Source: Chloroflexia bacterium
GTDB taxonomy: Bacteria > Chloroflexota > Chloroflexia > Thermobaculales > Thermobaculaceae
Reading direction: 5' to 3'
DNA: 64,000 nt
NCBI GenBank assembly: GCA_030446765.1
Contig: JAUJMR010000014.1
Location: 1 to 64,000, forward strand
The notes under the pieces are model-generated. The model was not told where the DNA came from. It did no database searches and worked only from the letters and a program-made list of their open reading frames with translations. Positions 51,965 to 61,832 of the stretch are shown here, in pieces. The stretch's first letter is position 1. Every line of letters begins with the position of its first letter. Both the position numbers and the translations under genes were made by a program.

Positions 51965-53125
51965 ATGACCAGGATACTTATCGTTGCCACGGCCGACAAC
52001 CACCTGAGCCGGCCGCACGCGCGGATGTCTCCCGCGAAACTCGAGAGCCGCCGGGAACGGTTGCGGCAGGCGTTCGGCGCGGCGGTGACCCACGCCATCG
52101 AACATCGGGCGGCACTCTTTCTCCACGGCGGCGACCTGTTCGACACGCCGAGTCCGACCAACGCCGATCTGGCCTACGTCGCAGACTGTCTCCGCCGGCT
52201 CCGGGACGCTGGTGTGGTGGTGATTGCGGTCGGCGGCAATCACGACACCCCATCGGGGCGCACGGTCCAGGGCGGGGTTGCTCCCCTTTCTCCCTCGCGT
52301 ACCTTCACGGGCTGACGTACTTCGGTACGCCGACGCTCGAGCGCACAACGCTTGAGGTCGCCGGGATGCCGCTCCACATCGCCGGCCTGACGCCCGCACC
52401 TGGACAGAATGCCATGGACCCGCTGGAAGCGCTCGTTGGTGCCGCAGGCGACGGGGTCCAGATCTTTCTAACGCACGGCGCGATCGAGGGCCACGGGTCC
52501 GGCAGTCGGGAACCAGTGCTGCGTCGACACACCGCGGCCTCCCTGCCTGACCTGCGCCTGGTCATCACCGGGCATATTCATCGACATGCTACAGAGCGGG
52601 TGGAGTAACGTACTGCTCCTCGCGCCCGGCGCGACCGAGTGGATGACTCACGGGGAAACGGACGCGACGCCGGGTTTCGTCACCTGCGTCTGGGATGGTG
52701 AGTGCGTCCGTGACGTTCGGCACATCCCCGTGCCACCGCAGCCACGCGTCACGATCGACGTGGACATGGAAAGGCTCGAAGACGATCCGCACGATCAGGT
52801 ATACGAGCGCATCACGACGCGGTCCGCCGCCCGCGCGCTCACCCGCCTTCGTGTGACCGGAACAGCGAGACGCGAGCAGTACGCCAACTTGCTGCTTCGT
52901 CAGCTCCAGGAGTACGGTGCGGAGCGAAACTTCCACTTTGACATCGACGTGACCAGGCTGCGCATCACGGACAGCCTGCAGGCAGGGGCCGTACGCGGCG
53001 TGCGCAGCTCCCAGCCAGAGGAGATCGCCGCGGTCGCGCAGGAGTTCATCGATGCGTCGAGCACGCAATACGCGCGTGCGCTCTGGAAGGCAGCGCGGGC
53101 CGATGTGCTCGCGCAGTACGAATGA
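51965..53125 (+). pseudogene. SbcD/Mre11/YhaO-like metallophosphoesterase, two frame breaks (near 52280 and 52595)
   Basis: ILIVATADNHLSRPHARMSP...FLHGGDLFDTPSPTNADL...VIAVGGNHDTPSGR / HIAGLTPAPGQNAMDPLEALVGAAGDGVQIFLTHGAIEGHG...LVITGHIHRHAT / NVLLLAPGATEWMTHGETDATPGFV. Confidence 0.8.
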
Positions 53126-55029
53126 TTACCCTCGACTGGCTGGCGGTCACGACGTTCAAGTCGTTGCGCGAGATCCGAATCCAGTTCCCGGCGAGTGGCG
53201 CGGTGCTCATCGAAGGTGCGAATGAGTCGGGCAAAAGCACGCTCTTCGAGTGCATCTACTTCGGTCTATACGGCTCCGGCCTCGTTACTGAGGATAACCG
53301 ACGATCATTCGAGAGCTTGATCATGTACGGCGAGGAGTCAGCACGCGTCTGCCTCGGGCTTCGAACGAGTGACCGGACGCTGAAGATCGAGCGCACGATC
53401 CGGCGAGGCAAGCTGACAACGGCGTCCCTGACGGTGACCGGCGTAGACTCGGTGCCCGAGAGGATCACCGCCGTGCGCGAGGTGAACCACCGCATCATCG
53501 ACGAGCTTGGCGGGCTCGACGGCACGGCCCTACTCAATTCATGCTTCGTGGAGCAGAAGCGGCTCGGCAAGCTTGAGGAAATGGCCGCAGGCGAGCGCAG
53601 GAATTCGCTGCTACGTATCTTGAATTTGGACAAGATATCGCAACTGGAAGATCAATATCGCGTACGACAAGCCGATGAAGTCGCCGTGCGACAGCTTGCG
53701 GACCAAGCAGCAGCCGCATGCGCAAGACAGGAAGAGGCGGTGTTACGCGTTCAGGTTACCCAGCTACGTGCAGCGCTGGATCGACAGAACAGGGAACTGA
53801 AGCTCGAAGCCACCAAGCGCCAAGAGGACGAGCTAACAGCATTAACAGATCGCATCGCGCGGCTCGAACGATTGAGGCAGATCGACGCGCAACGTGCGGC
53901 CGCGCCGAGACGCGCCGATCTCCAGGAGCGGCAACGGGAAGTCGGCGTTCTGCTGGCGCGGAGGCCGAGAATCATCGGTGCCGGTCTGGTTGGAACCGCC
54001 GTGTTGCTGCTCGTTACGTTTGGTGCCCTGGCCGCCGGATCGCCCGTGGCGGGAATTGCAGCAGGCGCTATGCTGTTGGGTCTCAGCGCCGCGGTGATCT
54101 ACACCCTCGTGCGCACGTCTTCGAGGATCGAGACCGCACGCGCCGAGAGCCTCCAACTGAGCCGGGCAGTACGCCAAGCCGATCTGGAATCGGAGCGCCT
54201 GCGCGTAGAGCTTGGGCTCGCGCCGGAAGCGGACATCGAGCACGCCTTAAGCACGGCGAACAGGGCACAAGGAGCGGCCGAGCACGAGCTGACTCAGCTC
54301 AGAAACGAGCTTACCGCGTTCCCGATAGCCGAGGATGGACCGGATCCGGAGGAGCAACCAGCAACAGTCACCGCGGAGACGCTAGAGGCGGCTGAGGAGC
54401 GGCTGCGTGAGCTCGTGGCACAGGTCCGGCATCTTTCGATCACGGTCCGCGACCCGGAACCCCTTGCCGACGCGGAGGATCTGGAAACGAAGCACGCACG
54501 CGCGCTCCGGGATCTAGAGGTACGTCGGCATGCCGGTGAAATCTTAGCCGAGGCACGCCGTCGCATGGTCGACCGCGTCCTGCCGGAAACGGAGCGCAAC
54601 ATGTCGATGATCCTGCCGTTGCTGACAGCGGGGCGCTACTTTCACGCCCGCATCACGGAGGATTATCGCATCGATCTTTGGGACGAGGCCGCTGGCCGGT
54701 ATGTCGGAAAGAACGTCTATTCCGGTGGAACGAAGGATCAGATCAGCCTGGCGCTCCGCCTTGCGTTTGCGATCGCCAGCCTGCCGCAAGAGATGGGCTC
54801 GTCACCCGGTTTTCTGTTCATGGACGAGCCGCTGAGCTCCTTTGACGAGGAGCGGACGGGCGCGCTCGTGGAGCTGATCACACGAGGCGAGCTCGCGGCA
54901 ATCTTTCCTCAAATTTTCCTCATTTCCCACAGCCGCAGTTTCGATCCAGGCAGCTTCCCGTTCGTACTGCGCATGGAGAACGGCGGCATAGGGTACACTA
55001 CGCTCGGCCAGGACCCAGTGCTACGATAG
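53122..55029 (+). CDS. Rad50/SbcC/YhaN-like ATPase with transmembrane hairpin in the coiled coil
   Basis: IQFPASGAVLIEGANESGKSTLFECIYFGLYG (Walker A); coiled coil; RRPRIIGAGLVGTAVLLLVTFGALAAGSPVAGIAAGAMLLGLSAAVIYTLVRTSSRIE (two TM segments); YSGGTKDQISLALRLAFAIASL (signature) ...GFLFMDEPLSSFDEER (Walker B). ATGA overlap with upstream gene. Confidence 0.88.
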   Translation: MITLDWLAVTTFKSLREIRIQFPASGAVLIEGANESGKSTLFECIYFGLYGSGLVTEDNRRSFESLIMYGEESARVCLGLRTSDRTLKIERTIRRGKLTTASLTVTGVDSVPERITAVREVNHRIIDELGGLDGTALLNSCFVEQKRLGKLEEMAAGERRNSLLRILNLDKISQLEDQYRVRQADEVAVRQLADQAAAACARQEEAVLRVQVTQLRAALDRQNRELKLEATKRQEDELTALTDRIARLERLRQIDAQRAAAPRRADLQERQREVGVLLARRPRIIGAGLVGTAVLLLVTFGALAAGSPVAGIAAGAMLLGLSAAVIYTLVRTSSRIETARAESLQLSRAVRQADLESERLRVELGLAPEADIEHALSTANRAQGAAEHELTQLRNELTAFPIAEDGPDPEEQPATVTAETLEAAEERLRELVAQVRHLSITVRDPEPLADAEDLETKHARALRDLEVRRHAGEILAEARRRMVDRVLPETERNMSMILPLLTAGRYFHARITEDYRIDLWDEAAGRYVGKNVYSGGTKDQISLALRLAFAIASLPQEMGSSPGFLFMDEPLSSFDEERTGALVELITRGELAAIFPQIFLISHSRSFDPGSFPFVLRMENGGIGYTTLGQDPVLR

Positions 55030-59004: not shown

Positions 59005-59598
59005 GTGGAGACCATTCTTCTGGGCGTGTTCCTCTTCGGGCTGATCTTCACGGTGCTCAGCTTCCTGTTGGGCTTCGCCGAAGTGGAGCTCCCGACGCCG
59101 GACTTTCTCGATGTGGACCTTGGAGCGGGTCAGGCCGCGCTCTCGCCGTGGAATGTGAGTACGATTCTCGCCTTCCTGACTTGGTTTGGAGGTATTGGCT
59201 ACCTGCTGGCCGTACAGACCTCGTTCGCGGGCGTGGTCGTCCTTGCCCTCTCAGTCCTCGGCGGACTGTGCGGGGCGGCGGTCGTGTTCCTGGCCATCGT
59301 CCGCCTGCTACTCCCCGGTCAGACCGCACCCATGCGGGCCGAAGACTATCGGCTAGAGGGCACACTCGCTCGCGTCACTATACCGATGGGCGGCGCCCGG
59401 ACGGGCGAAGTGGTTTACAGCAAGCGCGGCACGACACGCAGCGAGGGCGCGCGAAGCGCCGATGGCAGCCCGCTCCCGCGGGATACCGAGGTGGTTGTAT
59501 TGCGCTACGAGAAGGGCATCGCATACGTGGAACCCCTCGACAAGCTTCTCTCCGAGCGTCCCGCGCGGTCTGCTGGTGCACTTCCGGATGCTGATTGA
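59005..59598 (+). CDS. NfeD/YuaF-like membrane protein (paralog 1)
   Basis: LLGVFLFGLIFTVLSFLLGFAEVELPTPDFLDVDLG...FLTWFGGIGYLL...RLLLPGQTAPMRAEDYRLEGTLARVTIPMGGARTGEVVYSKRGTTRSEGARSADG; small OB-like C-terminal domain. Confidence 0.75.
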   Translation: METILLGVFLFGLIFTVLSFLLGFAEVELPTPDFLDVDLGAGQAALSPWNVSTILAFLTWFGGIGYLLAVQTSFAGVVVLALSVLGGLCGAAVVFLAIVRLLLPGQTAPMRAEDYRLEGTLARVTIPMGGARTGEVVYSKRGTTRSEGARSADGSPLPRDTEVVVLRYEKGIAYVEPLDKLLSERPARSAGALPDAD

Positions 59599-59674
59599 TT
59601 GTGCGTGACTTCTGGCGCGCTGAGGCGTTTTGTCTGTAGTAACCGCCCGCTGTGACGGAGAAGATGGAAGGTTG

Positions 59675-60274
59675 ATGGAAGCGTTTTTCCTGGTACTGTT
59701 CCTGACGGGTGCCTCGCTCGCGGTGCTATCGGTGTTGTCTGGCATCGGTCACCTCGGCCTGCACCTGCCCCATTTCCACACCGCACACCTACCTCATCTC
59801 CATATCGGAAGCGCCCATACCAGCGACGTGGCACCAGTGAACGCGACGACGATCACCGCGTTCCTCGCGTGGTTCGGTGGGATCGGCTACGTCCTGACCT
59901 CCACTACGCATCTGCCGACGCTGCTAATCCTGCCGCTCGCGGCTCTGGCGGGGGCTTTTGGGGCGTCTCTCGTCGCCCTGTTCCTCCTGCAGGTCCTGCT
60001 CCGCGGGCAGACTCCCGAGCTGCGCCCGGAGGACTATCGCATCGAGGGCACACTCGGGCGCCTCACGGTGCCAATAAGGCGAGGAGGAACTGGCGAGGTG
60101 GTTTACGACAAGTTCGGCGTGACACGGAGCAACGGCGCACGGTGCGCAGATGGTAGCCTATTGCACCGAGGCACCGAGGTTGTGATCCTCCGGTACGAGC
60201 GCGGCATGGCATATGTGGAGCCGCTCGACCGGTTGCTCGCGGCGCGCGCATCGCATGACACCGAACAGCTGTGA
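59675..60274 (+). CDS. NfeD/YuaF-like membrane protein (paralog 2)
   Basis: FLAWFGGIGYVLTSTT...VLLRGQTPELRPEDYRIEGTLGRLTVPIRRGGTGEVVYDKFGVTRSNGARCADGSLLHRGTEVVILRYERGMAYVEPLD aligns with paralog 1; His-rich loop HLPHFHTAHLPHLHIGSAH. Confidence 0.75.
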   Translation: MEAFFLVLFLTGASLAVLSVLSGIGHLGLHLPHFHTAHLPHLHIGSAHTSDVAPVNATTITAFLAWFGGIGYVLTSTTHLPTLLILPLAALAGAFGASLVALFLLQVLLRGQTPELRPEDYRIEGTLGRLTVPIRRGGTGEVVYDKFGVTRSNGARCADGSLLHRGTEVVILRYERGMAYVEPLDRLLAARASHDTEQL

Positions 60275-60365
60275 GCAAGTACGAGCGATGGATGAGCAGG
60301 GATCCCACCCACACCGACTGCACGTCCGCGGTTTGACGCACACAACGTAGTACAAGGAGACAGAA

Positions 60366-61832
60366 GTGGAAACCATCATCGTCGTCGTCGCGGCGCTCGT
60401 CGTCGTTACCCTGCTTTGTATCTCCGCGCTCGCTCGTATGTTCCGTAAAGTGGGGCCGAACCATGCGCTCGTCGTTTACGGTTTCGGCGGCACCCAGATC
60501 GTGACCGGCGGCGGCCGGTTCATCATCCCGATGGTGCAGAGCCATCGCGAGCTGTCCCTGGAACTGATGAGCTTCGACGTCGCCCCCACCCAGGACCTCT
60601 ACTCCGCACAGGGCGTGGCCGTAACCGTCGAGGCCGTCGCGCAGATCAAGATCAAGAGCGACCCCATGAGCATTCGCACGGCGGCCGAGCAACTCCTGAC
60701 AAAGGCACCCGCGGAACGCGAGGGGTTGATCCGTCTCGTGATGGAGGGGCACCTCCGCGGCATCGTCGGCCAGCTCACTATCGAGGCGATCGTGAAGGAT
60801 CCGGAGATGGTTGCCGACCGGATGCGCGGCAACGTCTCCGAGGACCTCGCCAAGATGGGACTTGAGGTGGTCAGCTTCACAATCCGGGAGGTCCGCGACA
60901 ACAACCACTATATCGAGAACATGGGCAAGCCCGACATAGCGCGAGTGCAGAAGCAGGCAAACATCGCCGCGGCGGAGGCCAGCAGCGCCACGGCGATCCG
61001 TCAGGCCGAGACGACGCGCGAGGCCGCTGTCGCACAGGCGCTCGCGGACCAGGAGCGCGTGATCGCGCAGGCAGCCTCCGCGACGCGCCAGGCCGAGGCC
61101 CAGCGGGACCTCGACCTCAAGAAGGCGGAGTTCGACGCGACGGTCCAAAAGCAGCGGGCCGCCGCGGATAAGGCCTATGACATCCAGGCAAACATCATGC
61201 AGCAGCAGGTCATCGCGGAGCAGGTAAACGTCCAGCGAATCGAGCGCGAAGGACAGATCAAGGTGCAGGAGGCCGAGATCGCTCGTCGCCAGCGTGAGCT
61301 CGACGCCACGGTCCTCAAGCCCGCGGAGGCCGAGCAGCGGCGGGTGGCACTGATCGCGGAGGCGCAGAAGCAGCGCAGTATGCTGGAGGCGGCCGGTCGG
61401 GCGGAGGCGGTGCGGGTCGAGGGGCAGGCAGAGGCGGATGTCATCCGGGTGCGCGGGCAGTCGGAGGCCGAGATCATCGCCGCGAAGGGCACGAGCGAGG
61501 CCAACGCGATGCAACAGAAGGCCGATGCCTATAAGCAGTACAACGAGGCCGCGATCCTTGATAGCCTGATCACCGGACTCCCGGAGCTCGTCAAGGGAAT
61601 GGCCGCGCCGCTCTCCAGCGTGGACAAGATTACCATCGTCTCCACGGGCGATGGCCACAACGGCGCCGGGATGAACCAGATCACCACCGACATCGCCCGG
61701 ATGGTGGCGACCGCCCCTACTCTCGTGGAGTCGCTCACTGGGATCAAAATTACCGACCTTCTCGCCCGAGTGCCTGCGTTGCGCGAAGAGGTCAGCGCGA
61801 TCCAGAAGGAAAACGGCATCAAGCCCCGGTAG
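60366..61832 (+). CDS. Flotillin family protein (SPFH domain)
   Basis: METIIVVVAALVVVTLLCISALARMFRKVGPNHALVVYGFGGTQIVTGGGRFIIPMVQ...VAVTVEAVAQIKIKSDP...LRGIVGQLTIEAIVKDPEMVADRM; Ala/Glu/Gln-rich coiled coil. Confidence 0.92.
   Translation: METIIVVVAALVVVTLLCISALARMFRKVGPNHALVVYGFGGTQIVTGGGRFIIPMVQSHRELSLELMSFDVAPTQDLYSAQGVAVTVEAVAQIKIKSDPMSIRTAAEQLLTKAPAEREGLIRLVMEGHLRGIVGQLTIEAIVKDPEMVADRMRGNVSEDLAKMGLEVVSFTIREVRDNNHYIENMGKPDIARVQKQANIAAAEASSATAIRQAETTREAAVAQALADQERVIAQAASATRQAEAQRDLDLKKAEFDATVQKQRAAADKAYDIQANIMQQQVIAEQVNVQRIEREGQIKVQEAEIARRQRELDATVLKPAEAEQRRVALIAEAQKQRSMLEAAGRAEAVRVEGQAEADVIRVRGQSEAEIIAAKGTSEANAMQQKADAYKQYNEAAILDSLITGLPELVKGMAAPLSSVDKITIVSTGDGHNGAGMNQITTDIARMVATAPTLVESLTGIKITDLLARVPALREEVSAIQKENGIKPR

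Follow-up and report, generated by a model that had tools for sequence, protein, structure and literature searches.

The stretch of DNA that we analysed, hereafter the window, is 64,000 nt long and contains an Mre11/SbcD-like nuclease gene whose stop is overlapped, by ATGA, by the start of a gene for a Rad50-like ABC ATPase (Table 1). Both the overlap and the ATPase, the latter as a Rad50/SbcC-like protein at 53122-55029 with intact Walker A, signature and Walker B motifs, had been proposed in a sequence-only reading of the same DNA, and our analysis confirmed them. Precisely, the ORF is real and intact, the evidence from Pfam, Foldseek and the bipartite ABC head agrees, and all the motifs were found, with key residues that do not vary across the family alignment. 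The 25 rows of this alignment were the window protein plus 24 relatives (lengths of 557-1682 aa, relatives 32-90% identical) from Chloroflexota, Rubrobacter-labelled MAGs, Caldisericota, Armatimonadota and other groups. The ATPase matched the Pfam family AAA_23 with 54.2 bits, and SMC_N was also matched. The top Foldseek match of its AlphaFold2 model (pLDDT 82.5, pTM 0.56) was the Rad50 structure 3auy (E 3.9e-17), and by both sequence and fold the nearest solved structures were Rad50 and Mre11-Rad50 complexes.

Table 1. Features of the nuclease-ATPase locus, in positions of the window (residue numbers refer to the ATPase; invariance refers to the 25-row alignment)
Feature	Position	Strand	Remarks
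Mre11/SbcD-like nuclease gene	51965..53125	+	read in three frames; NCBIfam Mre11/sbcd and Pfam Metallophos matches
Rad50/SbcE-like coiled-coil ABC ATPase with putative membrane hairpin	53122..55029	+	635 aa, ATG start, ORF intact
Walker A GANESGKS (res. 32-39)	53215..53238	+	G32, N34, E35, G37, K38, S39 invariant
Hydrophobic, putative TM helix 1 (res. ~282-304)	53965..54033	+	RRPR just before; AlphaFold2, hydropathy, apolar run
Turn AGSP (res. ~305-308)	54034..54045	+	coiled-coil tip, predicted outer face, without charged residue
Hydrophobic, putative TM helix 2 (res. ~309-331)	54046..54114	+	VRTSSR just after; AlphaFold2, hydropathy, apolar run
ABC signature SGGTKDQ (res. 534-540)	54721..54741	+	S534, G536, D539, Q540 invariant
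Walker B FLFMDEP (res. 564-570)	54811..54831	+	F564, D568, E569, P570 invariant
H-loop SH (res. 602-603)	54925..54930	+	S602, H603 invariant

Compared with an intact 386-aa copy in a sister MAG (L001, ~90% DNA identity), the reading frame of the Mre11-like gene of the window is shifted twice by 1 bp, near 52290 and near 52604, which the earlier reading had missed. These breaks could mean that the locus is decaying in this organism, with the nuclease gene a pseudogene and the ATPase orphaned, a reading that is compatible with the explanation we prefer for the family as a whole and that fits the lack of any lasting break in the ATPase gene, the frame of which is unbroken with respect to L001 except for one compensated alignment gap. 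We consider decay unlikely, however, for three reasons. Both genes are under purifying selection (dN 0.017 and dS 0.21 for the N-terminal part of the nuclease; dN 0.004 and dS 0.26 for the C-terminal lobe of the ATPase, with ~0.063 and ~0.24 over its first 400 codons, the ATPase values being those against a sister MAG), intact nuclease copies are present in same-genus and same-family genomes, and 1-bp indels are spread between 44.5 and 50 kb of this contig, as base-calling errors would give. With such indels scattered and selection acting on both genes, the breaks more likely come from errors of sequencing or assembly than from decay. The metal-ligand-type positions of the Mre11-like proteins are invariant. 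Between 44500 and 50200 of the window there are many 1-bp indels relative to the sister genome, several of them in single-base runs, and the contig looks to have a raised base-calling error rate.

The most unusual part of the ATPase is the tip of its coiled coil. Two hydrophobic segments separated by a short turn, in the position of the zinc hook and without its CxxC motif, had been described there from the letters, and the description stood. In fact, residues 284-330 form a 47-residue stretch without D, E, K, R, N, Q or H, no CxxC is present in the window protein or in its full-length relatives, and AlphaFold2 places both segments at the coiled-coil tip, and not in a globular domain, in the two proteins modelled. 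In the window ATPase the predicted helices span residues 183-259 and 261-304, with residues 305-307 forming the turn and 308-364 the next helix; the antiparallel coiled coil hence has its tip within the apolar stretch. In the model of a Caldisericota relative with much longer arms (L010) the turn, at 406-407, likewise lies within the apolar stretch, which indicates that the hairpin keeps its tip position as arm length changes. Because the pTM values of the two models are moderate (0.56 and 0.48), we took the arm geometry as a sketch only. An SMC-type globular hinge is absent from both models, which have a helix-turn-helix tip instead, and we rejected on the same basis the idea that the segments are buried inside a globular domain.

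An apolar run of 47 residues was reached in 0/20,000 shuffles of the ATPase sequence, and this result, together with conservation, rules out chance hydrophobicity. The Kyte-Doolittle peak of the protein was matched by 8% of the shuffles and is a weaker test taken alone; for this reason the weight of the hairpin case lies on run length and conservation. As to the latter, two adjacent apolar segments were found in 25/25 aligned members, at relative position 0.42-0.53. In the ten residues that precede the hairpin the 25 members together have 65 Lys/Arg, in the ten that follow it 62 and in the turn 4/143, a distribution that corresponds to the positive-inside pattern. Across the alignment the segments keep their hydrophobicity and hardly any of their letters, and low letter conservation is usual for membrane helices. 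Taken together, hydropathy, apolar-run length, charge asymmetry and conservation favour a transmembrane hairpin.

As controls we considered zinc-hook and canonical SbcC/Rad50 proteins, those bearing CxxC being L045, L048, L050, L084 and L086. The hairpin was absent from the SbcC of the same genome, three close SbcC homologues, an SbcC with CPVC (L045), a Priestia plasmid protein (CPVC), an archaeal plasmid Rad50-like protein (CPEC), a Miltoncostaea protein (CSQC) and a phage protein (CEAC), and no control had a mid-protein apolar run near 47 residues. Most of the hook-type and canonical proteins read SGGE where the window protein has SGGT. The window protein shares with SbcC/SbcD and Rad50/Mre11 the bipartite ABC head, the antiparallel coiled coil and the Mre11-like partner, besides the closest solved structures, and differs from them in having a hairpin for the CxxC hook and SGGT-x-DQ for SGGE.

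Two proteins of the same clade as the window family lack the hairpin (L064, 1483-5178, and L065, 1486-5181), although they have the signature SGGTQDQ and an Mre11 neighbour; given these two and the proteobacterial YhaN-like proteins without it, the hairpin is not indispensable. Conversely, two Chloroflexota paralogues (L080, 837-3953, and L081, 1441-4455) have the hairpin and have lost Walker A; their products are possibly non-ATPase subunits.

The apolar hairpin could also be read as a hydrophobic hook, by which two soluble Rad50-like proteins would dimerise tip to tip outside the membrane and without a metal. As dimerisation modules, zinc hook and SMC hinge can replace one another (PMC6969161); the hairpin sits exactly where these modules sit, and its lack in L064 and L065 suggests that other tips can serve. 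However, a dimer interface needs far less than a stretch of ~45 residues with every helix face free of polar side chains, Lys/Arg lie on both flanks and avoid the turn as in membrane proteins, and the segments diverge freely in sequence with their hydrophobicity kept. We therefore regard a soluble hook as improbable, and keep a membrane hairpin as the preferred reading.

We also placed the family in a tree built on the two head lobes, with long deep branches and weak support at some inner nodes. YhaN-like proteins and the window family share a clan that stands apart from the CxxC zinc-hook proteins (99.8/100). Within this clan the two are sister groups (95.5/99), the window family lying outside the YhaN-like group; support for the latter itself varies between trees (100/100 versus 51/58). 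YhaN had been suggested as the closest named family, and this held as far as the clan is concerned. Membership of YhaN proper, here represented by a syntenic Enterococcus YhaN, found no support in the tree, which places the window family outside that clade. The N-lobe matched AAA_27, the YhaN N-domain, just at threshold with 22.6 bits (cut-off 22), more weakly than AAA_23. An ordinary SbcC merely without CxxC was rejected, since the SbcC of the same genome is without the hairpin and occupies another part of the tree. The absence of CxxC is uninformative alone because this SbcC, too, is without a strict CxxC. Its hook region (contig C92, ~736000-743800) reads CPLSRADC.

The hairpin was present in all four Bacillota YhaN-like proteins examined (E. 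faecalis, E. eligens, Monoglobus and Vescimonas) and in one from Chloroflexota (L044), and absent from the proteobacterial YhaN-like proteins examined. The simplest reading is one ancestral hairpin that was lost later in some lineages. The E. faecalis gene has neighbours of yheA/yhaM/prsA type, that is, genes for a YlbF-family protein, an exonuclease, an HD-domain protein and a peptidylprolyl isomerase. As in SbcE/YhaN with YhaO of Bacillota (yhaONM in B. subtilis), a metallophosphoesterase gene precedes the coiled-coil ATPase gene in the window. The two-segment hydrophobic hairpin without zinc hook is common to the window family and the four Bacillota members, and the signature S-x-G-T-x-D/N-Q to the window family and 3/4 of them. 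The window family differs in Walker B (MDEP, versus DD in YhaN), in the better fit of its N-lobe to AAA_23 than to AAA_27 and in its other neighbours. The window protein is a variant within the known SbcE/YhaN clan.

By ORF clustering, the Mre11-like gene adjoins the ATPase gene in 20/29 loci, and in more by direct BLAST; it lies directly upstream in nearly all the loci that reach far enough, sometimes on the opposite strand. Two relatives (L026, 900-7751, and L028, 945-7769) have the order nurA-herA-mre11-rad50 on one strand, with a Rad50 of the hairpin type. This order is that of the classical DNA-end-resection cluster, known in archaea, from which L026 and L028 differ in that their Rad50 has the hairpin and no zinc hook, whereas the window has the Mre11-ATPase pair alone. 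In two Caldisericota MAGs (L010 and L011) the order is herA, one further gene, mre11 and hairpin-type rad50. The further gene of L010 (2922-3845) is of the histone-deacetylase family, and a gene of similar size occupies the same place in L011. Because the other stronger AAA_23 matches examined in these four genomes are RecN and RecF, no Rad50 other than the hairpin protein seems to be present there, provisionally so as all four are MAGs. The genome of the window holds, on C92, a separate canonical SbcC/SbcD with NurA and HerA.

Gene context also bears on whether the pair could belong to a membrane defence complex of Lamassu or MADS type, attacking phage or plasmid DNA on entry instead of acting in repair. 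When PADLOC was run on the Mre11-ATPase pair only, its models mad3 (5e-20) and LmuB (5e-15) matched the ATPase; membrane tethering would suit action on incoming DNA, and E. eligens, Monoglobus and other YhaN-like relatives are on large plasmids. LmuB is about 650 aa long, with short arms and a Rad50-like head (PMC10586767), and resembles the window ATPase in all three respects. Nevertheless, both matches are probably due to the shared Rad50-type head. The window protein departs from LmuB in its Mre11-like partner and its hairpin tip, and no LmuA, LmuC or other Lamassu effector gene was recognised among the neighbours examined (an Mre11-like nuclease, an SDR dehydrogenase and a protein without Pfam match). 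Moreover, two relatives lie within a nurA-herA repair cluster, and the one related locus found in viral contigs has a CxxC hook and no hairpin. A defence function is, in our judgement, very unlikely.

We consider it likely that the two genes encode an Mre11-Rad50-type complex in which the zinc hook is replaced by a hairpin inserting into the cytoplasmic membrane, which supports the membrane-anchored nuclease complex proposed in the earlier reading. It is from features of the sequences and models, and from kinship, that we infer membrane insertion, complex formation, nuclease activity and biological role. The N and C lobes of the ATPase would meet to form the ABC head, and two heads with a dimer of the Mre11-like nuclease would form a cytoplasmic cutting module gated by ATP, by analogy with SbcCD/MRN. 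The coiled-coil arm, of ~100 residues here and up to several hundred in relatives, would tether the head to the membrane. Given a conserved hairpin at the arm tip, this DNA-cutting complex is probably fixed to the cell membrane. As in SbcCD/MRN, nuclease access would be governed by the heads, driven by ATP to engage on a DNA end, and DNA ends would be captured and trimmed at the membrane.

Judging by kinship and gene context, the complex most likely serves to process ends in double-strand-break repair, possibly with a role in processing incoming DNA as for the related B. subtilis SbcE/YhaN. SbcE (YhaN) has been reported in double-strand-break repair and competence (title of Krishnamurthy et al. 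2010, as cited in PMC4205851 and PMC3896406). Furthermore, yhaN and yhaO of B. pumilus are listed as LexA/SOS genes, their cluster being induced by H2O2 (PMC3896406), an interaction screen linked SbcE with YabT, a transmembrane kinase (PMC4205851), and SbcE is listed among the SsbA partners (PMC7031210). A membrane anchor, if true, could explain the link of SbcE to competence, DNA uptake taking place at the membrane.

In textbook Mre11-Rad50 complexes the arms are closed by a zinc hook and the action is on the nucleoid. We suggest more tentatively, as a possibility still short of likely, that the hairpin is, beside zinc hook and SMC hinge, an alternative of ancient origin, defining a whole Mre11-Rad50 branch that works on DNA ends at the cytoplasmic membrane and is the sole such complex in some bacteria (L010/L011 and L026/L028). 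A large, deep branch with a membrane-anchored tip would, if true, put DNA-end processing at the membrane. The interest of the family lies in a membrane-type tip conserved across several phyla, and in the literature searched, with incomplete coverage of journals, we came across no membrane hairpin described for Rad50, SbcC or YhaN. Farther along the window (59005-61832), two NfeD-like genes in tandem, with a flotillin (SPFH) gene after them, were recognised by eye from the translation.
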